A stretch of 64,000 nt of DNA from Variovorax boronicumulans (GTDB lineage: Bacteria > Pseudomonadota > Gammaproteobacteria > Burkholderiales > Burkholderiaceae_C). The position numbers were made by a program, and so were the translations under genes. The number at the start of each line of letters is the position of its first letter. Position 1 is the first letter of the stretch. Of the stretch, positions 13,281 through 34,011 are shown piece by piece. The notes beneath the pieces were generated by a model. That model did not search any database, was not told the origin of the DNA, and saw only the letters and a program-made list of their open reading frames with translations. The DNA is taken from NCBI RefSeq assembly GCF_019352895.1, contig NZ_JAAAFX010000007.1, positions 291,132 to 355,131 on the forward strand, written 5' to 3'.

Positions 13281-14234
13281 TTATGTCGCGCGACGGATGC
13301 GGTCGATCAGGCCGTTGAGCGCCTCCAGCGAGCCGAAGTGGATCGCCAGTTCACCGCTCTCCTCGATCTTGCCGCCGCGCTTGCTGCGCTTCTTGATGCG
13401 CACCTCGACCTCAGCGGTCAGCAGGTCTGCCAGCTCTTCCTCGACCCGCAGCAGGTCGCGCGACTTGTCGGCCGCGCCGTTGCGGCGTGGCGAGGGCGTG
13501 AGGCTGAAGTCGGCGGCGAGCTTCTTGACCAGCGCCTCGGCCTCGCGCACCGACATCTTCTTGCCCGCGATCTGGTTGGCGGCCGTGATCTGGGTGCCGC
13601 GGTCCAGCGACAGCAGCGCGCGCGCATGGCCCATGTCGATGTCGCCGGCCATCAGCATGGCCTGGGCGGGCTCGGCCAGGTTCAGCAGGCGCAGCAGGTT
13701 GCTGGCGGCGCTGCGCGAACGGCCCACGGCCTGGGCCGCGGCTTCGTGGGTGAGCCCGAACTCCGCGACCAGGCGCTGCAGGCCCTGCGCCTCTTCCAGC
13801 GGGTTCAGGTCCTCGCGCTGGATGTTCTCGATCAGCGACATGGCCGCGGCGGCCTCGTTGGGCACGTCGCGCACCAGCACCGGCACGCTGTCCAGGCCGG
13901 CCAATTTGGCGGCGCGGAAGCGGCGCTCGCCGGCGATGATCTCGAACTCGGCGTTCTTCGCGGCGGCCGATTCGGCGTCGAGCCGGCGCACCAGGATCGG
14001 CTGCATGATGCCCTGCACCTTGATGCTCTCGGCCAGCTCGTAGAGCGCGCCCTCGTCCATGCGGGTGCGCGGCTGGTAGACGCCAGCCACCATCTGCTCG
14101 AGCTTGAGCACCGTGGGCTGGGGCACCGGGGCGTTGGCGTCGGGGGCGGCCGGTTCGTCGGTGCTGCCGTTGAAGGTGGGGCCCAGCAGGGCTTCGAGTC
14201 CGCGGCCGAGGCCCTTGGGTTTCTTGGTGGCCAT
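13281..14234 (-). CDS. parB: Chromosome partitioning protein ParB
   Basis: ParB (317 residues) is the CTP-dependent DNA clamp that loads at parS and spreads around the origin region. The N-terminal domain contains the CTPase/arginine motif GERRFRAAKLAG (about 120-131) and the upstream VYQPRTRMDEGALYELAESI. A central helix-turn-helix region (FGLTHEAAAQAVGRSRSAASNLLRLLNL) reads parS. The C-terminal region (LAIHFGSLEALNGLIDRI) dimerises. Two parS sites lie 2-3 kb away in rsmG and mnmG. The gene is last in the mnmG-rsmG-lysE-parA-hydrolase-parB cluster. Confidence 0.96.
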   Translation of the reverse strand: MATKKPKGLGRGLEALLGPTFNGSTDEPAAPDANAPVPQPTVLKLEQMVAGVYQPRTRMDEGALYELAESIKVQGIMQPILVRRLDAESAAAKNAEFEIIAGERRFRAAKLAGLDSVPVLVRDVPNEAAAAMSLIENIQREDLNPLEEAQGLQRLVAEFGLTHEAAAQAVGRSRSAASNLLRLLNLAEPAQAMLMAGDIDMGHARALLSLDRGTQITAANQIAGKKMSVREAEALVKKLAADFSLTPSPRRNGAADKSRDLLRVEEELADLLTAEVEVRIKKRSKRGGKIEESGELAIHFGSLEALNGLIDRIRRAT

Positions 14235-14239
14235 CGAGG

Positions 14240-14797
14240 TCAGTCTTCTTTGTCTGTGGTCTTCAGGAGGTCGTCCAGCAGCGCCCGGCCCTGGGGCCAG
14301 TCGCCCAGGCCGGATTCGCCGTTGAGGTGGCCGGCGGTGCCGGCGTCGACGAAGCGTGCGCCCCAGTCGGCCGCCAGCTGGCGCGAGCGCGCGGCGTCGC
14401 AATAGGGATCGTCATTCGCCGCGATCAGCAGCGAAGGAAAAGGCAATCGCTGGCGCACGATGGGTGCCCAGCCGGGAATCATCTGGCGCAGGTCGTCGCG
14501 CTCCAGGTCGCCGGGCGCCACAAGCAGGGCCGCACGGACCTTGTCTGTGTTGCGCGAGTGCGCGGCCCAGGCTGCGACCAGGATGCAGCCCAGGCTGTGG
14601 GCCACGAGCGCCACCGGGCCGGGCGCGGCCAGCACTTCTTCCTCGAGCCGGGACAGCCAGTCGCCGCGGCGGGGATGCATCCACTCGTGCTGCTCGACCC
14701 GGTGGTCGCCATGCACGGCCTCCCAGCGGCTCTGCCAATGGGGCGCATCGCTGTTCTGCCAGCCGGGCAGCAGCAGGATGGGGGTAGGGATGCTCAT
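14240..14797 (-). CDS. RBBP9/YdeN-family alpha/beta hydrolase
   Basis: This 185-residue serine hydrolase starts with the family mark LLLPGWQNSDAPHWQSRWE. The nucleophile elbow is VAHSLGC (Ser at about residue 69), the acid is in ANDDPYC, and the catalytic His is in TAGHLNGESG. It lies between parA and parB: its ATG begins 4 bases after the parA stop, and parB begins 5 bases after its own stop. It is therefore cotranscribed with the partition genes. A role in partitioning is not known for this family. Confidence 0.9.
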   Translation of the reverse strand: MSIPTPILLLPGWQNSDAPHWQSRWEAVHGDHRVEQHEWMHPRRGDWLSRLEEEVLAAPGPVALVAHSLGCILVAAWAAHSRNTDKVRAALLVAPGDLERDDLRQMIPGWAPIVRQRLPFPSLLIAANDDPYCDAARSRQLAADWGARFVDAGTAGHLNGESGLGDWPQGRALLDDLLKTTDKED

Positions 14798-14801
14798 CGC
14801 A

Positions 14802-15656
14802 TCATTCCTCGGCCGTATCGGCTGCAGCGGCGTCCTGGGTCTCGGCCGGCAGCTCGACCGGCGGGGGCGCGGGCTGGGCCAGCGCACTGGCTGGCGGCAT
14901 CTTCTCGACCAGCTCCTGCGCGAAGGCGACGAAGGCCTGGCTGCCGCGCGCCGACGGGTCGAACACCACGCCCGGCAGGCCGTAGCTCGGGGCCTCGGCC
15001 AGCCGCACGTTGCGCGGGATCACGGTGTCGAACACCTTGTCGCCGAAATGGCCCTTGAGCTGCTCGCTCACCTGCTGCTGCAAGGTGATGCGCGGGTCGA
15101 ACATCACGCGCAGCAGGCCGATGATCTGCAGGTTCTTGTTGAGGTTGGCGTGCACCTGCTTGATGGTGTTGACCAGGTCGGTCAGGCCCTCGAGCGCGAA
15201 GTACTCGCACTGCATGGGCACGATCACGCCATGGGCCGCGCACAGGCCGTTGAGCGTCAGCATGCTCAGGCTGGGCGGGCAGTCGATCAGGATGAAGTCG
15301 TACTCGGCGCCCACGGCCGCCAGCGCGGTGCGCAGGCGCTTCTCGCGCCGGTCCAGCGCGACCATCTCGACCTCGGCGCCGGCCAGCTCGCGGTTGGCGC
15401 CCAGCACGTCGTAGTTGCATCGCTCGGCCCGCACGCGAGCCTCGGCCACCGTGGCCGACTCCAGCAGCACGTCGTACACCGTCAGTTCGAGCTGGCGCTT
15501 GTCGATGCCCGAACCCATGGTGGCGTTGCCCTGAGGGTCGAGGTCGATCATCAGCACCCGCTGGCCCACCTTGGCCAGGCCGGCGGCGAGGTTCACGGTG
15601 GTGGTGGTCTTGCCGACGCCACCCTTCTGGTTGGCAATGCAGAAAATCTTGGCCAT
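14802..15656 (-). CDS. parA: Chromosome partitioning ATPase ParA (Soj)
   Basis: ParA (284 residues) is the nucleoid-bound ATPase that moves ParB-parS complexes. It has the deviant Walker [20 protein letters not shown] (residues 9-27), the switch region MIDLDPQGNATMGSGI and the Walker B-type YDFILIDCPPSLSML. The VIPRNVRLAEAPSYG motif is also intact. The last 35 residues are a Pro/Ala/Glu-rich tail not needed for the fold. There is no N-terminal HTH extension, so this is the chromosomal type Ib-like form, not a plasmid type Ia ParA. Confidence 0.96.
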   Translation of the reverse strand: MAKIFCIANQKGGVGKTTTTVNLAAGLAKVGQRVLMIDLDPQGNATMGSGIDKRQLELTVYDVLLESATVAEARVRAERCNYDVLGANRELAGAEVEMVALDRREKRLRTALAAVGAEYDFILIDCPPSLSMLTLNGLCAAHGVIVPMQCEYFALEGLTDLVNTIKQVHANLNKNLQIIGLLRVMFDPRITLQQQVSEQLKGHFGDKVFDTVIPRNVRLAEAPSYGLPGVVFDPSARGSQAFVAFAQELVEKMPPASALAQPAPPPVELPAETQDAAAADTAEE

Positions 15657-15669
15657 CGTCTCTTCTCTC

Positions 15670-16284
15670 TCAGCGCGACACGGCGAGCTTGATGCCGAAG
15701 GCGATCAGGAAGACGCCCGCCAGCTTCTCCAGGGTCTGCGAAATGCGCGGGTTGGCACGCAGCCGCTCCGCCAGGAAATGGGTCAACAGCGTCGCCGCCA
15801 GGCCGTACAGGAAGGTCAACACCGCGATGGTCAGGGCCATGAAGGCGAAAGTGCGGAAGCCCTGGTGGCGCGCCGGATCGACGAACAAGGGGAAGAAAGC
15901 CATGTAGAAGACGATCGCCTTGGGGTTCAGCAAGGTGATGAACATCGCCTGGCGGAAGAACTGCCGCGGGCGGATGTTGAGGATCGGGGCGGCGCCGGGC
16001 TTGGCCAGCAGCATGCGGGCGCCCAGCCAGGCCAGGTAGGCCGCGCCCAGCCACTGCACCGCGTGGAAGGCCGTGGGATAGGCCGCCAGCAGCGCCGCCA
16101 CGCCGGCCACCGCCATCCACATCAGCACCTGGTCGCCGGCGATCACACCCAGCGTGGCGGCCAGGCCGCCGCGGATGCCGCCCTTCCCTGTCGAGGTGAT
16201 CAGGGCCAGGTTGCCTGGGCCTGGGATCGCGAGAAACAGGACGATGGCCGCAACGAATGCGCCGTAATCAGCGATGCCGAACAT
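15670..16284 (-). CDS. LysE/RhtB-family exporter
   Basis: This 204-residue inner-membrane protein has about six hydrophobic segments. The N-terminal family signature runs LFLAIPGPGNLALITSTGKGGIRGG at about 17-41, followed by GVIAGDQVLMWMAVAGVAALL. The LNPKAIVFYMAFFPLFVD motif at about 117-134 is typical of RhtB-type amino-acid or metabolite exporters. It stands between rsmG and parA on the same strand, 13 bases upstream of neither start overlap, so it may ride in the same transcript. The exported substrate is not evident. Confidence 0.88.
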   Translation of the reverse strand: MFGIADYGAFVAAIVLFLAIPGPGNLALITSTGKGGIRGGLAATLGVIAGDQVLMWMAVAGVAALLAAYPTAFHAVQWLGAAYLAWLGARMLLAKPGAAPILNIRPRQFFRQAMFITLLNPKAIVFYMAFFPLFVDPARHQGFRTFAFMALTIAVLTFLYGLAATLLTHFLAERLRANPRISQTLEKLAGVFLIAFGIKLAVSR

Positions 16285-16363
16285 GGGATGTGCCTGAGGC
16301 CGGAGGTGGGAGGGAGCTGCGAGTCTAAGCGAGCCATCCCTACCACCGACACCCCTGCAGCGT

Positions 16364-17011
16364 TCAGGACGCTGCTTTTCGTGCCCAGACGATGCAGCGC
16401 TCGGCGTCCAGGCCCGGTACCGTCAGTTGTTCCACGTGAAACACATCGACGAAGGACGGCAATTGCGCGAGTTCGTCCGAAGGCAGTTTGCCCTTCATCG
16501 CCAGCCAGATGCCCTGCGGGCCGAGCAGTTGCTGCGAGCCGTTGTAGAAGTCGGGCAGCGAGGCAAAGGCCCGGCAGCTGATCACGTCGTAGGCACCGCG
16601 CTGCGCCTCCACGCGCGCATGCAGCCCGCGCAGGTTGGGCAGGCGCAGCTCGGCCGCCACCTGCTGGACGAAGGCGGTCTTCTTGGCCACTGCGTCCAGG
16701 CAGGTCACGTCGATGTCCTCGCGCAGGATGGCGATCACCACGCCCGGCAGCCCTGCCCCGGCGCCGACGTCCAGCAGCTTGGTACCGACGGCGCTGGCTG
16801 GCCGCTCGCGCTGCAGCGGCGGCAGCACCGAGAGGCTGTCGAGCAGGTGATGGCTCAGCACCGCATCGGGCTCGCGCAAGGCCGTGAGGTTGTAGACCTT
16901 GTTCCACTTGAGGATCAGCGCACCGTAGGCCAGCAGCCGCTCGGCTTGCAGATCGCTCAGGTCGAGGCCGAGGGCCTTGGCGCCCTCTTGCAACTGAATC
17001 GACTGGCTCAT
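16364..17011 (-). CDS. rsmG: 16S rRNA (guanine527-N7)-methyltransferase RsmG
   Basis: RsmG (GidB, 215 residues) methylates N7 of G527 in 16S rRNA using SAM. Family marks are the N-terminal [14 protein letters not shown] segment, the [11 protein letters not shown] motif, and the SAM-binding [17 protein letters not shown] at about 74-90. Its ATG overlaps the mnmG stop as ATGA. Near the C-terminus, the codons for FHVEQ are formed by an embedded parS site. Confidence 0.96.
16428..16443. promoter_or_regulatory. parS site within rsmG
   Basis: TGTTCCACGTGAAACA matches the consensus TGTTNCACGTGAAACA at every defined position. It lies inside the rsmG coding sequence, about 2.2 kb from the parB gene, and should be a ParB loading site. 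Confidence 0.93.
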
Positions 17012-18966
17012 GCTTCGGCCACCGGCGCAGCGGTGTCGGCCACGGCATCGCGTGCGAAGGCGCGATGCCCGCCCTTGCGCAGGTGCACCATCAGCAAGGA
17101 GATGGCGGCCGGCGTTACGCCGGAAATGCGCGAGGCCAGGCCCAGGGTCTCGGGCCGCTGGCGTTCGAGCTTCTGCCGCACCTCGAAACTCAGCGCACTC
17201 ACCTGGCTGTAGTCGAAGTCCGCGGGCAGGCGCAGGTTCTCGTAATGCGCGGCACGCTCCACCTCGTCATGCTGGCGGTCGATGTAGCCTGAGTACTTAG
17301 CCGAGATCTCGACCTGTTCCACCTCGACGGGCGCCAGGGGCTCGGCCGGCGCGTACTTGCCGCCGTCCAGCGACATCAGCGCCGCGTAGTTAACATCGGG
17401 GCGACGCAGCAGGTCGCCCAGGTTGTATTCATGCTCGATGGCCTTGCCCAGCACCCGCTGCGACTCGCTGGCCGGCAGGTTGCGTGGATTGACCCAGACC
17501 GATTTGAGCCGCTGTGTTTCACGTGAAACAACGTCGCGCTTGCGCGAGAACGCATCCCAGCGCGCGTCGTCGACCAGGCCCAGCTTGCGCCCAGCCTCGG
17601 TCAGACGCATGTCGGCGTTGTCCTCGCGCAGCTGCAGCCGAAACTCGGCGCGGCTGGTGAACATGCGGTAGGGCTCGGTCACACCCTTGGTGATCAGGTC
17701 ATCGACCAGCACACCCAGGTAGGCCTCGTCGCGGCGCGGCAGCCAAGCGCCCTCGCCCCGGCATTGCAGCGCGGCATTGATGCCGGCGAACAGGCCCTGC
17801 GCCGCGGCTTCTTCGTAGCCGGTGGTGCCGTTGATCTGGCCGGCGAAGAACAGGCCCTGGATCGCGCGCGTCTCGAAGCTGCTCTTGAGTTCGCGTGGAT
17901 CGAAGTAGTCGTACTCGATCGCATAGCCCGGGCGCAGGATGTGCGCGTTCTCCAGGCCCACCATCGAGCGCACCAGTTGGTACTGGATGTCGAAAGGCAG
18001 GCTGGTCGAGATCCCGTTCGGGTAGTACTCGTTCGTCGTCAGGCCTTCGGGCTCGAGGAAGATCTGATGGCTTTCCTTGTCGGCGAAGCGGTTGATCTTG
18101 TCTTCCACGCTCGGGCAGTAGCGCGGGCCCACGCCTTCGATCTTGCCGGTGAACATCGGACTGCGGTCGAAGCCCGAACGGATGATGTCGTGCGTGCGCG
18201 CGTTGGTGTTGGTGATCCAGCAGGCCATCTGCCGCGGATGCATGTCCGCGCGGCCCATGGTGCTGAACACCGGCATGGTGGTCGTCTCGCCGCCGGGCAT
18301 GCCGTCACCGGGCTGCTCGATGCACTTCGAGAAGTCGATGCTGCGCCCATCGAGCCGCGGCGGCGTACCGGTCTTGAGCCGGCCCTGGGGCAGCTTCAGT
18401 TCCTTGAGCCGGGCCGACAGGCTGATGGCCGGCGGGTCCCCTGCCCGGCCGGCCTGGTAGTTGTCCAGGCCCACATGGATGCGGCCGTCGAGGAAGGTGC
18501 CGGCGGTCAGCACCACGGTGCGCGCCCGGAAGCGGATGCCCACCTGCGTGACCGCGCCCACCACGCGATCGCCCTCCACCATCAGGTCGTCCACGCCCTG
18601 CTGGAACAGGCTCAGGTTCGGCTGGTTCTCCAGCCGGTGGCGGATCGCCGCCTTGTAGAGCACGCGGTCGGCCTGGGCGCGCGTGGCGCGCACGGCCGGG
18701 CCCTTGCTCGAATTGAGGATACGGAACTGGATGCCCGATTCATCGGTGGCCAGCGCCATCGCGCCGCCCAACGCGTCGACCTCGCGCACCAGATGGCCCT
18801 TGCCGATGCCGCCGATCGAGGGGTTGCAGCTCATCTGGCCCAAGGTCTCGATGTTGTGGGTCAGCAGCAGCGTCTTGGCGCCCATGCGGGCGGAGGCCAG
18901 GGCAGCCTCGGTACCGGCGTGACCGCCGCCGACGACGATGACGTCGAATTCTTCAGGATAGAGCAT
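17008..18966 (-). CDS. mnmG: tRNA uridine-5-carboxymethylaminomethyl enzyme MnmG
   Basis: MnmG (GidA, 652 residues) works with MnmE to modify the wobble uridine of certain tRNAs, using FAD and methylenetetrahydrofolate. It starts [24 protein letters not shown], with the dinucleotide-binding GGGHAG at about 13-18. Family motifs [24 protein letters not shown] and [19 protein letters not shown] are intact, as is [17 protein letters not shown]. The start at 18966 matches homologues; an in-frame ATG five codons upstream is less likely. A parS site is embedded near codon 480. Confidence 0.97.
17515..17530. promoter_or_regulatory. parS site within mnmG
   Basis: TGTTTCACGTGAAACA is an exact, fully palindromic parS. 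It lies in mnmG where the codons read SRET on the coding strand. It is 1.09 kb from the rsmG parS and 3.3 kb from parB. Confidence 0.97.
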
Positions 18967-19114
18967 GAGATGGAGGCGCACTCTCGCGTGCGCGGCGTGG
19001 GAGTCTGCAGGGAGGGGGACCCCGATTTTAAGCGGCCTGCACGTTTCGCAGTGCTTGTGGGGGCTCCGAGCGATCCGGCATATGGGCCGGAAGGTCGCTC
19101 CATCCTGCGTTCAG

Positions 19115-29211: not shown

Positions 29212-30153
29212 TCAGGCCCCGCGCACCATCGAAAGAATCTGTGTGGGGTCGAGGGTGCGCGCCTTCTCCTGGATGGCCGGCAGGTAGCGCACCTGCAGGC
29301 CCTGCCCTTCCTTCGTGACGCTGGCATAGGCGTCCTTGAGCATCTGCGTCGACAGGGTCCGGCCCCCCCCGTAGTACCGCTTGGCGACATGGCCCAGTGC
29401 ATAGGTCGTGGCAAAGCTCATGCCCGAACTCACGGCCTGCTGGCCCACGCCGCGCAGCAGGCCACCGCCCACCTTGCCGAGCAGGCCACCCAGCAACTTG
29501 CGGCCGGCCTGCTCGAGGTACTGCGAGGTCAGGCCCACACCCACTGTGGCGATGAAATCCTTCACATGGCCGCTGTCGAGCGCGTAACCATGCGCCTGGC
29601 CGATGCGATAGACCAGTTTCATCTGCAGCGGGATGATCGCCATGGTCGAAAGCGTCTCGGGCAGCAGTTCGAGCGCGCCGTTGAGGATCGCGGCATTCAG
29701 GATCGACTGGTCGAGCGCGGCCTCGTCCACCGTGGACGTTGCGGCCGGCGTGGCTGTCGGCGCAGTGGATGCGACCGATGCCGTGGCCAATGCCTCAGCC
29801 TGCGCCGTGAACTGCGTGGCCTGCTCGGCGTCCAGCCCCAGCGATGAGCGGACGTCCGCGAGGAAAAGACGCTCTGCGTCCGATTGCGCACCATCGGCAT
29901 CGCACACACAGACCGCCATCTCGTAAGCCAGTTGCCGTGACTCGCTGCTGAGCAGTGCCGCGCTCACGTCCGGCAAGGACACACGCTTCATCAGCACATC
30001 CTGGTAGAGCGTGGGCAAGTGCACGCCATCGGCCTGCGACAGGCCCTCGGCGATGCGCTTGATCTCGGCGCGTTCGCGCTCGTGCTTGTCGCCATCGACA
30101 AAGGCGGCCAGCAGGCTCAGGGTGACGATGGCGCGGGTTTCGGACGGGTTCAC
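29212..30153 (-). CDS. TerB-domain protein with DUF697-like membrane region
   Basis: The 313-residue protein has an N-terminal TerB-type acidic helical domain (about 1-125: LSLLAAFVDGDKHERERAEIKRIAEGLS and AVCVCDADGAQSDAERLFL). An Ala/Thr-rich linker follows (about 127-150), then a hydrophobic, glycine-rich domain (about 160-270) resembling DUF697 (TMAIIPLQMKLVYRIGQAHGY, DFIATVGVGLTSQYLEQ). TerB proteins are metal- or phage-stress-linked, but function here is unknown. It directly borders the left end of the origin-like repeat array and reads away from it. Confidence 0.78.
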   Translation of the reverse strand: MNPSETRAIVTLSLLAAFVDGDKHERERAEIKRIAEGLSQADGVHLPTLYQDVLMKRVSLPDVSAALLSSESRQLAYEMAVCVCDADGAQSDAERLFLADVRSSLGLDAEQATQFTAQAEALATASVASTAPTATPAATSTVDEAALDQSILNAAILNGALELLPETLSTMAIIPLQMKLVYRIGQAHGYALDSGHVKDFIATVGVGLTSQYLEQAGRKLLGGLLGKVGGGLLRGVGQQAVSSGMSFATTYALGHVAKRYYGGGRTLSTQMLKDAYASVTKEGQGLQVRYLPAIQEKARTLDPTQILSMVRGA

Positions 30154-30271
30154 GGTGCTTTCTTTCCTCGGGGATGGGAGACGGGGCGGCGACGTTCAGA
30201 AGCCTGGTCGGTCAATGCTGAGGCCGAAGGCGCCTGTTGCCCGCTTTCTCCCCACAAATCTTGGGTAACTC

Positions 30272-30280
30272 TGTGAATAA
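30272..30280 (-). promoter_or_regulatory. DnaA box TTATTCACA (module 1)
   Basis: The minus strand reads TTATTCACA, an exact match to TTATNCACA. It is at the start of module 1. Confidence 0.75.
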
Positions 30281-30421
30281 CTCAGGTGCTTTCTTGTAAG
30301 AGCATCGCAAGTCATTGATTTCAAAAGAAAAACAACAGAATGCTCAATCTCTGAGCAGTGGATGTCTTTTTTTTGGAAAAGCGCTTTTCCAGATTTTTCA
30401 CCCCCTGTCAAAGGACAACCC

Positions 30422-30430
30422 TGTGGATAA
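30422..30430 (-). promoter_or_regulatory. DnaA box TTATCCACA (module 1)
   Basis: The minus strand reads TTATCCACA, the strongest consensus DnaA box. It is the only such copy in the array; equivalent positions in other modules read TCTCCACAG or TTTCCCCAG. Confidence 0.8.
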
Positions 30431-30922
30431 TTCGTGCACAACCGGCCTGCCGCTGGCAGTCACCGCCGCGCCAGAGCACTTTTTCTTCCCGCCGACACCG
30501 CGCCGCCAGGACGATGCCCACAAGAATTCATGCGCTGCAAGTCCTTGTCACACCAAGGAAATATGGCGCTGTCCACAGACTTGGACTACCACGCTGTTCG
30601 AACAATTCGAATGGAAGAAAGAAGAGGCGAGAAAAGGACGAATTTTTTCGCATAAAAACCGCCCGAAGTTCATCCTTCGCCCTGCGATATGCGCGGCCAA
30701 CGCATTGCGGGCGAAAGCTCGCCAAAGTTTGATCGACTCGCTCACGCCTCGCCACCGTTCCTGGCCGCTGTGCCTCCTCGGATGGTCGTCGTTCCTCAAA
30801 ACCGATCGCGAGGTCGGCGCCAAGCCTCGGCACCCGGTCCGGGGGGATTCCAGCCCTGGGTCGCCGGCGCCCATCGCGCGCGCACAAGTTATCCGCAGCG
30901 CGCCTCAGCCCTCACCTCTTCT

Positions 30923-31330
30923 CCCCACAAACACTGGGTAACTCTGTGCACAACTCAAGCACTGTCTTGTAAAGCCCCCGCAAGTCCTTGTTTTCAAAGA
31001 GAAATACTTAGCTTGCTCTATTTTTAAGCAGTGGATGTCTTTTTCCGGAAAAGTCCTTTCACAGATTTTTCCGGTGCTGTCAAAGGACAACTCTGGGGAA
31101 AATTGCGGCACAAGATGACAGTTGTCCACAGACGTCTCGGCACAAGCGAAGTTGTTCGCCGGCGCGGGACACCACCGACGCAGGGCTGCCCACACGCATC
31201 GAGAGGGTCCAAGTCCTTGTCACCAAAGAGAAATAGCGGCCTGTCCACAGAAAAGCGGTGCCCTTATCTACTACTACTAATTTAAATAGAAGAAATAAGA
31301 GATAGAGACAAGGCGAAATTTTTTTGTTTT
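30923..31330 (+). repeat. Origin-array module 2 (complete)
   Basis: All elements are present: box-like TGTGCACAAC at the front, TTGTCCACA at 31122-31130, CTGTCCACAG at 31241-31250, then a GC-rich run and a trio tract. A one-mismatch box TTATCCGCA (30889-30897) lies just upstream in the spacer. Confidence 0.85.
31241..31330 (+). other. Basal-unwinding-like unit with DnaA-trio tract (module 2)
   Basis: CTGTCCACAG is followed after a few bases by GCGGTGCCC and then CTACTACTACTAA (31268-31280) and an A/T-rich stretch with TTTAAATAG. The layout box, GC-rich, trios, AT-rich fits the DnaA-trio unwinding element first described in Bacillus subtilis oriC. Confidence 0.7.
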
Positions 31331-31623
31331 TAAAAGGGCCCAGGCTACGCCCTCCTCCTTGCAGGGAGCCAGGGCATCGCCTCGCCGTGACATGGAACGA
31401 TCACTGGTCGTCAGAGGCTCGTTCTCTCATCGCATCGCGCGCCAGCGCTCCCGTTGGACCGATGGCGGCGCGAAAACCTGCCAACCACCACGGCCACTTG
31501 CCCGCCATCCCAGGTCCGGGCCCCCATCAACGTCCGCGCCCTGGAGACGGTCCGTCGTCGGCGCACCGCTCGAAGGGGCCGAGTGCCGAGTTGTTCGCAC
31601 GCTGCCTGTAAAAGCGGTGTTTC

Positions 31624-31945
31624 CCCCACAAACACTGGATAACTCTGTTCATAACTCAGGCACTGCTTTGTAAGGGTCTTGCAAGCTGTTGTTTTTAAAG
31701 AGAAATCCTTAGGGTGCCTAACAATTGAGCAGTGGATGTCTTTGTGTCGAAAAGTGCTTTCCCAGATTTTTTGGGGGCTGTCAAAGGACAACTCTGTGGA
31801 GAATTCCGGCATAAGCCCAAAGTTGTCCACAGACGCTTGTCGCGCGATGGGCAGCGAAGCGATGTCTCCATGGCGTCGTACCCGGGGATCGAGGGGCCTC
31901 AAGTCCTTGTCATGGAACAGGAATAGCCGGCTGGCCGCCACAAGA
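31624..31945 (+). repeat. Origin-array module 3 (trio lost)
   Basis: The front half is well conserved, including TTGTCCACA at 31823-31831. The last box has decayed to CTGGCCGCCAC, and the trio and AT-rich tract are missing, so this copy ends early. Confidence 0.82.
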
Positions 31946-32123
31946 TCTCGCCTCTTTTCCGCGCCGGAGCTGACCGAGAGAAGTGAGGGTTGGAGACGTG
32001 GCGGCGTCAGGTTCGTTTTTTTGGGCTTTTTTTTGCCTGCGGCACCGGAGCAGCCCCGATGGCTTTCGAGGTACCCACAGCCACCAGGCCGGTCTGCCGA
32101 TGTGCCGAACAACACAGCGTTTT

Positions 32124-32523
32124 CCCCACAAAACCTGCGTAACGCTGTGAACAACTCAAGCACTGTTCTGTAGGGAGTTTCTAAGTCGTTGTTTTCAAAA
32201 GGAAAACAACAGACTGCTCAAGAATTGAGCAGTGGATGTCTTGAACTCGAAACGACAAATCCCACCCATTTCCCGGCCTTGTCAAAGGATAACTCTGGGG
32301 AAAATTCCGGCACAAGAGAGCACTTGTCCACAGAGGCAGCGCCGCTGGCGAAGTTGTTCCTCTGCGCGAGACAGTGCCGAAGCAGGGCTGCGCACATGCT
32401 TCGGAGCACCGCAAGTCCTTGTCGTGAAAGGAAAAGAAGGGCCTGTCCACAGAACGGTCGGACCCTCTACTACTACTACTAATTTAAATAAGAGAAATTA
32501 GAGATAGAGAGCGCGAAAAATTT
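32124..32523 (+). repeat. Origin-array module 4 (complete)
   Basis: The module has TTGTCCACA at 32324-32332, CTGTCCACAG at 32443-32452 and the longest trio tract. The middle block after GTGGATGTC is diverged from the other copies. Confidence 0.85.
32443..32523 (+). other. Basal-unwinding-like unit with DnaA-trio tract (module 4)
   Basis: CTGTCCACAG, a GC-rich run (CGGTCGGACCC) and CTACTACTACTACTAA (32467-32482) are followed by TTTAAATAAGAGAAATTAG. This is the longest uninterrupted trio run of the array. Confidence 0.72.
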
Positions 32524-32778
32524 CGCCAGAATTTCGTCTTCTGCACGGCAGGGCACGGCGCGCACGGGGTTGCATGAACCATTCGATCGTGGGCGCATCT
32601 TTCGGCTCGCTCATGCATCGCGACGGTCGCCTCGGCCGTCGCGCCGGACCCGGCGCTCCTGAGGGTGACAAAGCGCAGCCGAATGCACACTGACACATGA
32701 AAAGCGCCCAGAACGACCTGCCGCGGCGACGTGCGGGTCCGAAAAGACGTATTTCTCCCCACAAACGCTGGGTAACAC

Positions 32779-32787
32779 TGTGAATAA
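32779..32787 (-). promoter_or_regulatory. DnaA box TTATTCACA (module 5)
   Basis: The minus strand reads TTATTCACA, an exact TTATNCACA match, at the same place in the module as the box at 30272. Confidence 0.75.
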
Positions 32788-33074
32788 CTTAGGTGCTTTC
32801 TTGTAAGGCCGACGCAAGTCCTTGTTTTCAAAGGAAAAACAACAGAATGCTCAATCCTTGAGCAGGGATGTCCCGGCCACCGCATCGCCCTTTCCCAGAA
32901 TTTTCGGGCGCTGTCAAAGGACAAAGTTGGGGAAAATTTCATGGTGAAGGCGCGGTTGTGCACAGCGCGGCCGCAGCGGCCCAAGTTGTCCCTGCGGCCG
33001 CGACAGCACCGGCACCCAGCTGCACACATGCATGGCCGAACCGCAAGTCCTTGTCACATCACGAAAATAAAGAC

Positions 33075-33155
33075 CTGTCCACAGACAGCGTGCGGCCCTT
33101 ATCTACTACTATTAATTTGAATTAAAGAAATAAAAGAGAAGACAAGGGGCAACTT
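33075..33155 (+). other. Basal-unwinding-like unit with DnaA-trio tract (module 5)
   Basis: CTGTCCACAG, GC-rich GCGTGCGGCCC, then CTACTACTATTAA (33103-33115) and an A-rich tail (TTTGAATTAAAGAAATAAAA). The third trio is changed to TAT, still within the trio consensus. Confidence 0.7.
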
Positions 33156-33258
33156 GCAACGCAAAAAATCACGCGTTTCGCCGTGCGGCGCCGCCATCGG
33201 CCGCAAAAAACCTCGTTGCCGAGCCTGGGCGGCCCGGTGCATCGCTACCATTCCCCGC

Positions 33259-34011
33259 ATGAACGCCGCTCCCCTCGCCTTCAACTCCCGCATCTTGATC
33301 GCGGAAGACGAGCCGGGCATCGCCGACACGCTGCAGTACGTGCTGCGCAGCGACGGTTTTGCGCCCATCTGGTGCCCGACGGCCCAGGAAGCCATCGCGC
33401 AATTCAGCCGCGAGGCCCCGGCGCTGGCCATCCTGGACGTGGGTCTGCCCGATCTCAACGGCTTCGAACTCTTCAAGCGCCTGCAGGCGCTGCCGGGCGG
33501 CTCGGCCGTTCCGATGATCTTTCTGACGGCGCGCAGCGACGAGATCGACCGGGTGGTCGGCCTGGAGTTGGGTGCCGACGACTACATTGCCAAGCCCTTT
33601 TCGCCTCGCGAGCTCGTGGCACGGGTCAGAACGGTGCTCAGACGCAGCGCGCGGGGGTCAAACGCGACGCCCGCACCCCCGCCTGCCCCAGGGGCTTCCA
33701 GCGCGCCACAGCCCTTCCTGCTCGATGGGGAGCGCCGCCAGATCCGTTACTACGGTCGTGCGCTGGACCTCTCGCGCTACGAATACGGCCTGCTGTGCCT
33801 GTTCGTGCAGCGGCCGGGACGCGTCTACACCCGCGACGAACTGCTGGAGATGGTCTGGGACGACCCGGGCGACAGCTTCGACCGCACGGTCGACGCCCAC
33901 ATCAAGACCCTGCGCGCCAAGCTCAAGGCGATCGCGCCCGAGGTCGAGCCGATCCGCACGCTGCGCGGCACCGGCTATGCGCTGAACGAAGAATTGCCGG
34001 CGACGCCTTGA
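33259..34011 (+). CDS. creB: Response regulator CreB
   Basis: The 250-residue OmpR-type regulator has a receiver domain (acidic AEDEPG at about residues 13-18, phosphoacceptor in AILDVGLPDLNGFELF near 60, switch LTARSDE, Lys in IAKPFSPREL). An unusual Pro/Ala-rich linker of about 20 residues follows, then a winged-helix domain (YEYGLLCLFVQRPGRVYTRDELLE, ending IRTLRGTGYALNEE). The creB-creC-creD neighbourhood and an exact CreB box upstream of creD support the name. The ATG at 33259 starts the conserved region. Its promoter must lie in the 100 bases after module 5 or inside it. Confidence 0.9.
   Translation: MNAAPLAFNSRILIAEDEPGIADTLQYVLRSDGFAPIWCPTAQEAIAQFSREAPALAILDVGLPDLNGFELFKRLQALPGGSAVPMIFLTARSDEIDRVVGLELGADDYIAKPFSPRELVARVRTVLRRSARGSNATPAPPPAPGASSAPQPFLLDGERRQIRYYGRALDLSRYEYGLLCLFVQRPGRVYTRDELLEMVWDDPGDSFDRTVDAHIKTLRAKLKAIAPEVEPIRTLRGTGYALNEELPATP

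Follow-up and report, generated by a model that had tools for sequence, protein, structure and literature searches.

A five-fold tandem array as a predicted chromosomal replication origin in Variovorax boronicumulans

The locus and its tandem array

The DNA considered here (the window) is a stretch of 64,000 nucleotides from Variovorax boronicumulans, corresponding to positions 291132-355131 of the 726-kb scaffold C1 of its 6.5-Mb genome (G000). A repeat search of the window identified, at positions 30246-33150, five direct and diverged copies of a unit of approximately 390 bp (modules 1 to 5), which together form a candidate chromosomal replication origin (oriC). The five direct copies and their start-to-start spacing, as given by a first-pass annotation made from the sequence alone, were reproduced exactly (673, 701, 500 and 633 bp), and a BLAST search of the genome with module 2 returned all four sister modules with E values of 5e-34 to 8e-64, together with a 49-bp segment from module 3 (E 0.05).

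The profile of the unit (approx. 390 positions) is divided into a left half (LH; approx. positions 1-163) and a right half (approx. 165-396). The LH contains one minus-strand DnaA box about 26 bp from the start of the unit, that of module 3 being weak. In modules 2-5 the right half contains a TTGTCCACA-like box about 203 bp from the start, and in all modules but module 3 it has the DnaA box CTGTCCACA. In modules 2, 4 and 5 the latter is followed, after spacers of 18, 15 and 19 bp, by four, five and four CTA/TTA DnaA-trios, respectively, and by an AT-rich tract (67-73% AT over the 60 bp from the first trio), so that the unwinding tract that had been noted in three copies is found in these modules. 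Modules 1 and 3 are without trios; module 1 retains the last box, and module 3 lacks both. The combination of box, spacer and trios is referred to below as the basal unwinding system (BUS). The features of the array, in window coordinates, are the following; the right end of module 3, and the ends of the degenerate modules in the identity comparison described below, were set by hand.

30246..30636, plus strand: module 1, LH and last DnaA box retained, trios lost
30919..31314, plus strand: module 2, LH and BUS complete
31621..32018, plus strand: module 3, LH retained, BUS box and trios lost; the profile match stops before the right end
32120..32515, plus strand: module 4, LH and BUS complete, the module best conserved with respect to its partner in Variovorax sp. 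UMC13
32753..33149, plus strand: module 5, LH and BUS complete
31241..31279, plus strand: BUS of module 2, box CTGTCCACA, 18-bp spacer, four trios
32443..32481, plus strand: BUS of module 4, box CTGTCCACA, 15-bp spacer, five trios
33075..33114, plus strand: BUS of module 5, box CTGTCCACA, 19-bp spacer, four trios
31268..31327, plus strand: trios and AT-rich tract of module 2, 73% AT in a scaffold of 68% GC; equivalents at 32467-32526 and 33103-33162
30272..30280, minus strand: LH DnaA box TTATTCACA of module 1; equivalents in the other modules at 30945, 31646 (weak), 32146 and 32779
30422..30430, minus strand: perfect DnaA box TTATCCACA in module 1
31122..31130, plus strand: right-half DnaA box TTGTCCACA of module 2; equivalents at 31823 and 32324, and TTGTGCACA at 32956; none found in module 1
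30538, 30981, 31210, 31900, 32412, 32815 and 33044: CAAGTCCTTG sites

Motif content and unwinding elements

The DnaA boxes and 11-mers that had been attributed to the copies are indeed concentrated in the array. The motif CAAGTCCTTG occurs seven times in the window, always inside the array (0.06 expected from shuffles), and these are seven of its nine occurrences in the scaffold; at five of the sites in the array the motif is part of the full 11-mer GCAAGTCCTTG. CAAGTCCTTG is a near-palindrome, and the motif position recurs in the LH and in the right half in genus-wide alignments. Of the 74 DnaA-box-like 9-mers of the scaffold, defined as TTATNCACA with at most one mismatch, 12 fall within the 2.9-kb array (0.3 expected), which provides the densest 3-kb windows of the scaffold for DnaA boxes, and CTACTACTANT is found, within the scaffold, in the array only. 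Scaffold counts of DnaA boxes, CAAGTCCTTG and parS include the DNA to the left of position 291132. A DnaA-box cluster above background and an AT-rich tract beside the boxes, both of which serve as criteria for an oriC, are therefore present.

In the sections of the published BUS search that set out its rules (PMC8287927), a BUS comprises a DnaA box with no more than two mismatches to TTATCCACA, at least three DnaA-trios and a spacer of at most 16 bp, a longer spacer being accepted if a weaker box intervenes. The box CTGTCCACA of modules 1, 2, 4 and 5 has two mismatches, and modules 2, 4 and 5 have three trios or more. Modules 1, 2, 4 and 5 were among the 39 Variovorax sequences from which a BUS profile (R1) was constructed; run across the 726-kb scaffold, this profile matched nothing but the array. 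In the whole genome, at E values up to 0.001, all four matches lay in the array (37 of 616 candidates scored).

Gene neighbourhood

The locus is bordered by two genes, and a block including mnmG, rsmG, parA and parB lies further to the left.

29212..30153, minus strand: TerB-domain gene, left border of the locus
33259..34011, plus strand: response regulator gene bordering the locus on the right
13281..14402, minus strand: parB
14802..15656, minus strand: parA
16364-17011, minus strand: rsmG (gidB)
17008-18981, minus strand: mnmG (gidA)
17515..17530, no strand assigned: perfect parS TGTTTCACGTGAAACA
16428: second parS, one mismatch

A LysE-type gene also lies within the block (13281-18981). The two parS are the only parS-like sites (at most three mismatches) in the scaffold, and the mnmG-rsmG-parA-parB block with its parS, 11-17 kb to the left of the array, is the neighbourhood usual for an oriC; the proximity of parABS reported in the first-pass annotation (window 13.3-17.5 kb) was thus borne out. 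The rightward bias of the genes to the right of the array, initially put at 21 of 29, survived only locally: with a crude caller based on GC content at third codon positions (GC3), 14 of 21 genes read rightward within the window and 39 of 74 out to +116 kb, with no lasting bias. The DnaA domain is encoded at scaffold positions 380571-381053; in this genome about 70 bp separate dnaA from dnaN, and the rpmH-dnaA gap upstream of dnaA carries no trios.

Distribution of the unit in Variovorax

As detected by BLAST with module 2, a search that the first-pass annotation had recommended, the unit is present in 97 of 101 Variovorax genomes, and a BUS profile match was obtained in 98 of the 101, with one match in 63 of these and at least two in 35. 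Only part of the first-look candidates was scored in the BUS and LH profile searches (per genome, at most 15 in the family and at most 37 and 33 in Variovorax), so that copy numbers are lower bounds. Genes flanking the array in the window (TerB, MerR, kinase) lie beside the unit at 21 of 28 best-match loci in other Variovorax, UMC13 excluded. In some other Variovorax the right half lies where the dnaA-dnaN gap is expected, some genomes carry both loci, and further right halves are found at other loci in some.

BUS matches no more than 1 kb apart are found in five of the 101 genomes, namely G000, UMC13 (G001), G022, G086 and G066, R1 detecting four of the five modules in each of the first two and two copies in each of the others; no tandem neighbour within 1 kb was found in the remaining 96. 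In G022 and G086 the two-copy tandem lies close to the locus or at the end of a contig; in G066 it is at another locus. Five copies were seen, among the 101 Variovorax, only in G000 and UMC13.

As direct repeats, the modules superficially resemble iterons, which might suggest an origin derived from a plasmid, a phage or another mobile element that had integrated. The locus is, however, common across the genus, no match to the array was obtained among 72,556 plasmid records at E 1e-5, and none of the neighbouring open reading frames tested contained a replication-initiator domain, so that a mobile-element source appears highly improbable, and a plasmid origin was rejected for want of a plasmid-record match. 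Also rejected were an Rfam element (no match up to E 0.1) and an RNA structure in the LH (seven pairs, covariation term -0.11).

Two BUS units 29-34 kb apart, one of which is in the dnaA-dnaN position, are observed in G002, G023, G024, G027, G044 and G055, and in G019, G021, G074 and G076, an arrangement as expected of intermediates of origin relocation. In G067 a weak, decayed BUS match (C1:2437814-2437899; 25 bits, E 7e-5) is in the dnaA-dnaN position, 1.04 kb past the start of the DnaA domain and 39 kb from the full unit, and is possibly a relic of an older origin.

Copy-by-copy comparison with Variovorax sp. UMC13

The order of the modules is the same in the two five-copy species, with trios present in modules 2, 4 and 5 and absent from modules 1 and 3 in both. 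In a tree of 38 full units, modules 1, 3, 4 and 5 each pair with their partner in the other species (99-100% bootstrap), and the module 2 copies of both species are placed, without resolution, in a starred set that also holds module 3. From the one-to-one pairing of modules across species, it is most likely, judging from these sequences, that the five-fold state predates the split of the two.

Module identity in global alignments is 0.75-0.85 (z 31-43 with respect to shuffles), being 0.79-0.87 for the LH of all five modules and 0.77, 0.87 and 0.83 for the right halves of modules 2, 4 and 5, respectively. For spacers 1-2, 2-3 and 4-5 it is 0.67, as compared with 0.63-0.64 after shuffling (z 3.1, 4.5 and 9.3). 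Selection acting on five LH and three BUS would produce such a pattern; some similarity is also retained before module 4. The blocks flanking the locus are 87-98% identical to those of UMC13, mostly above 92%, and the two bordering genes 89-91%. From the contrast between conserved flanks and diverged array, it follows that the array, and above all its spacers, evolves unusually fast; the spacers between window positions 30637 and 32752, compared with UMC13 (G001:C36), indicate a very fast turnover inside the array, three of the four being near the shuffled level.

These data bear on two further explanations. An assembly artefact or a functionless plain repeat might be suspected from the 10-N join immediately to the left of the window start, a sign of imperfect assembly, but the copies differ by 22-35% in the LH and by 24-47% in the right half, unlike collapsed or duplicated reads, and the same five modules are present in the separate genome of UMC13, which leaves this explanation next to no credence. 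The join itself (G000:C1:291122-291131) may be wrong, because nothing corresponding to the DNA on its left is found next to the array in UMC13, and that DNA has the opposite strand polarity. Alternatively, the origin may lie here with a single working module (4 or 5, or 2), the others being leftovers of unequal crossing-over kept by drift. The loss of the trios from modules 1 and 3 in both species, the decay of their right halves and the single BUS match in 63 of the 98 matching Variovorax agree with such a scheme. On the other hand, five LH and three BUS are still 0.77-0.87 identical between species that share the five-copy order, with three of four spacers near the shuffled level, and the single-module scheme is considered unlikely.

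Unit halves at other loci

A 117-bp partial copy of module 2 was detected by BLAST on another scaffold of the same genome (C13:576809-576925). It corresponds to a stand-alone LH without BUS (G000:C13:576808-576934; L006, L010), as also found in UMC13 (G001:C10:332763-332888; L059), flanked in both species by genes for a PAP2 phosphatase and a SulP permease. Ten other Variovorax (G043, G042, G073, G068, G091, G098, G048, G038, G067 and G077; L269-L283) have a stand-alone LH at one mutually homologous locus, unlike that of G000, and in five of the ten it is a tandem pair, 242-267 bp apart. The distance from the LH locus to the origin unit is approximately 0.37-0.41 of the chromosome in seven of eight single-contig genomes and 0.24 in G042, values worked out by hand with four chromosome lengths rounded. 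The stand-alone LH locus of these ten genomes looks like a datA/DARS-type DnaA-control locus built with half of an oriC.

Right-half (BUS) copies without LH are found off the main unit (L132-L138) in G038, G067, G048, G046 and, three times, in G091. Those of G038, G048, G067 and G046 are 0.36-0.40 Mb from the main unit with partly shared flanks, and those of G091 are at three unrelated loci. They are possible second origins or DnaA sinks.

The unit in the wider family

A BUS profile match was obtained in 222 of 250 genomes of the family, representing 130 of 141 genera. Among the matches listed, BUS is found in 121 and dnaA in 149 of the 250 genomes, both in 87, and both on one contig in 69. 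Of these 69 genomes, 33 have their nearest BUS in the dnaA-dnaN position, two have it no more than 10 kb from dnaA, 27 at 10-100 kb and seven farther; in 18 further genomes the listed BUS and dnaA are on different contigs. The dnaA-dnaN position in relatives was called from distance and strand, dnaN itself not being part of the call. Judging from these distances, the element behaves as would an origin that lies now nearer to, now farther from dnaA.

A pair of BUS with like orientation, spaced 333-636 bp and with both members confirmed, is found in 10 of the 121 listed genomes, each of another genus. Seven of the ten loci were given to the repeat search, which detected direct repeats of 55-222 nt at five of them and none at the other two.

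Strand polarity and the weight of contrary observations

Strand polarity was followed through GC skew and through the FtsK orienting polar sequences (KOPS), whose pattern we take to be GGGNAGGG; the part of C1 to the left of 291132 was excluded from the change-point counts on account of the 10-N join and the lack of a matching segment in UMC13. In G000 (array at 321-324 kb, dnaA at 381 kb) the change points are at 407 kb for the skew and at 426-445 kb for KOPS, and from 291132 rightward 1 plus and 15 minus KOPS are counted to 426 kb, with 18 and 10 beyond. In UMC13 (array at 130-132 kb, dnaA at 176 kb) the change points are at 251-267 kb (skew minimum, 253 kb; skew change point, 267 kb), with KOPS at 5/37 to 251 kb and 9/7 beyond; another KOPS optimum, at 347-363 kb, is almost as likely. 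Splitting at the array gives 1/9 and 18/16 in G000 and 5/23 and 9/21 in UMC13. The GC skew of the whole scaffold C1 has only a weak change of slope, away from the array.

In G067 and G035, two complete relatives sampled at 20 points each, the KOPS bias switches within approximately 0.2 and 0.45 Mb of the unit, respectively, in agreement with the origin reading. To the left and to the right of the zone containing unit and dnaA, the plus/minus counts are 7/28 and 16/5 in G067 (the left count including two samples beyond 6.3 Mb) and 0/15 and 14/4 in G035; samples set apart are 1/2 at 2.40 Mb in G067 and 2/0, 0/1 and 1/4 at 1.86, 2.04 and 4.11 Mb in G035. GC3 skew and gene orientation proved noisy and gave no clear inflection, and in these two genomes the KOPS bias alone was clear.

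Several of the results obtained speak against the array as a five-fold origin. No switch in GC skew or KOPS is seen at the array in G000 or UMC13; in both genomes the polarity switch lies approximately 83-135 kb to its right, beyond dnaA, and the KOPS counts between the array and 440 kb (G000) or 251.5 kb (UMC13) are 0 plus/6 minus and 0/14, respectively. In G033, the two KOPS located between dnaA and the unit are likewise compatible with a switch at dnaA or beyond it. The dnaA gene is 56 kb to the right of the array. The 18- and 19-bp spacers of modules 2 and 5 are over the published 16-bp limit, only module 4 (15 bp) being strictly within it. In the comparison with UMC13, the right halves of modules 1 and 3 (identity 0.70 and 0.67) are no better conserved than the spacers, and the short spacer 3-4 retains 0.76 identity (0.59 after shuffling; z 8.7). 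Two signs that the first-pass annotation had named as refuting its proposal, a skew away from the array and modules at unrelated loci, were thus each seen in part, as a switch displaced beyond dnaA and as unit halves elsewhere in this genome and in relatives.

A move of the unit away from dnaA could explain the displaced switch: the unit probably was once beside dnaA and was then moved, the slowly changing polarity still marking the older start. The weak BUS match in the dnaA-dnaN position of G067, 39 kb from its full unit, speaks for such a move. However, the unit is at the same locus in two genomes of another genus (G171 and G276, g72), so that the move would be older than Variovorax, which weakens an explanation based on a recent move.

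The displaced switch is also what would be anticipated if the array were a DnaA-binding control locus, with titration or recharging functions like those of datA and DARS, and replication started near dnaA or at scaffold 407-445 kb. The stand-alone LH far from the origin unit fits the same idea, as does the presence of at least two LH matches in 56 of 69 LH-bearing Variovorax, three of which (G022, G086 and G066) owe them to tandem units. Against it are the location in the array of the only BUS-profile matches of the scaffold and of its densest DnaA boxes, the short dnaA-dnaN gap and trio-free rpmH-dnaA gap of this genome, and the presence in relatives of the same BUS at the canonical dnaA-dnaN position. 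A control locus in place of an origin is, on balance, quite doubtful.

Proposed function of the array

Taken together, the array is proposed to be the Variovorax chromosomal oriC in the form of five tandem copies of the approximately 390-bp origin unit of the genus, with a probability of roughly 0.7. The predicted assignment is supported by homology, the DnaA-trios, the sole BUS matches of the scaffold and the nearby mnmG-rsmG-parA-parB/parS block. The unit is homologous by sequence to the origin-like element of relatives, whose origins are likewise predicted. The chromosomal-origin reading of the first-pass annotation is therefore kept on the strength of these features and qualified by the displaced polarity switch and the unit halves elsewhere.

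The best reading of the array is an oriC amplified into a composite origin. More tentatively, three complete unwinding modules and five DnaA-gathering modules would all be under selection, each of the former able to open the chromosome. It is conceivable, with similar reserve, that such a composite oriC is the extreme of a family trend that includes tandem oriC modules, moved loci and the reuse of the LH as a DnaA-control locus.

In BUS origins DnaA binds the boxes and extends onto the trios, and the adjacent tract opens, as outlined in the parts of the work on this system drawn upon here (PMC8287927). By analogy, DnaA would load on the LH and right-half boxes of any module; in modules 2, 4 and 5 the DnaA filament would extend onto the trios, the AT-rich tract would open and the helicase would be loaded, modules 1 and 3 gathering DnaA only. 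Several copies would provide redundant opening sites and a large local store of DnaA, and redundancy, or a sharper timing due to the larger store, may be the reason for keeping them.

Comparison with known systems

Bacterial chromosomes are generally held to begin replication at a single compact origin that has one unwinding site. If the proposal is correct, a natural five-fold origin with three unwinding sites, maintained in two species, would allow one to ask how many sites fire, how initiation is limited to once per cycle and why origins are normally single, and the same unit, found at different loci in one, two or five tandem copies, would be a ready series for the study of origin evolution. 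The closest counterpart is the Variovorax unit at the TerB/response-regulator locus, with the same approximately 390-bp unit and the same flanking genes, from which the array differs by its five tandem copies.

Bipartite origins consist of unlike parts that flank a gene, with one unwinding site. The array resembles them in having more than one DnaA-box cluster for one origin and differs in repeating whole modules in tandem, unwinding site included. The bipartite origins of B. subtilis and Helicobacter pylori are named in PMC4403523. The putative double origins covered there (Gao 2015, PMC4403523) similarly involve chromosomes with two or more oriC-like regions, at separate loci or beside a duplicated dnaA; the part of its table consulted contains no tandem multi-module array and no Variovorax. 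Among the matches listed from the open-access literature, considered as titles and openings of abstracts, there was likewise no tandem multi-module oriC and no Variovorax origin.

The Variovorax stand-alone LH is similar to Escherichia coli datA and DARS2, as far as these are described in the relevant part of PMC5010248, in its fairly constant relative distance and its DnaA-box-like sites; it differs in having the sequence of half an origin unit, its role in DnaA control being a prediction. With the BUS-type oriC of Bacillus subtilis, in the features given in the corresponding part of Pelliciari et al. (2021; PMC8287927), the array shares the box, short spacer, at least three trios and AT-rich tract. 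It departs from it in having three complete and two decayed BUS in tandem, spacers of 15-19 bp and dnaA 56 kb away. A DnaA-dependent BUS origin is known, and what appears to be new, as read from the two genomes, is its five-fold tandem form with three intact BUS in two species.

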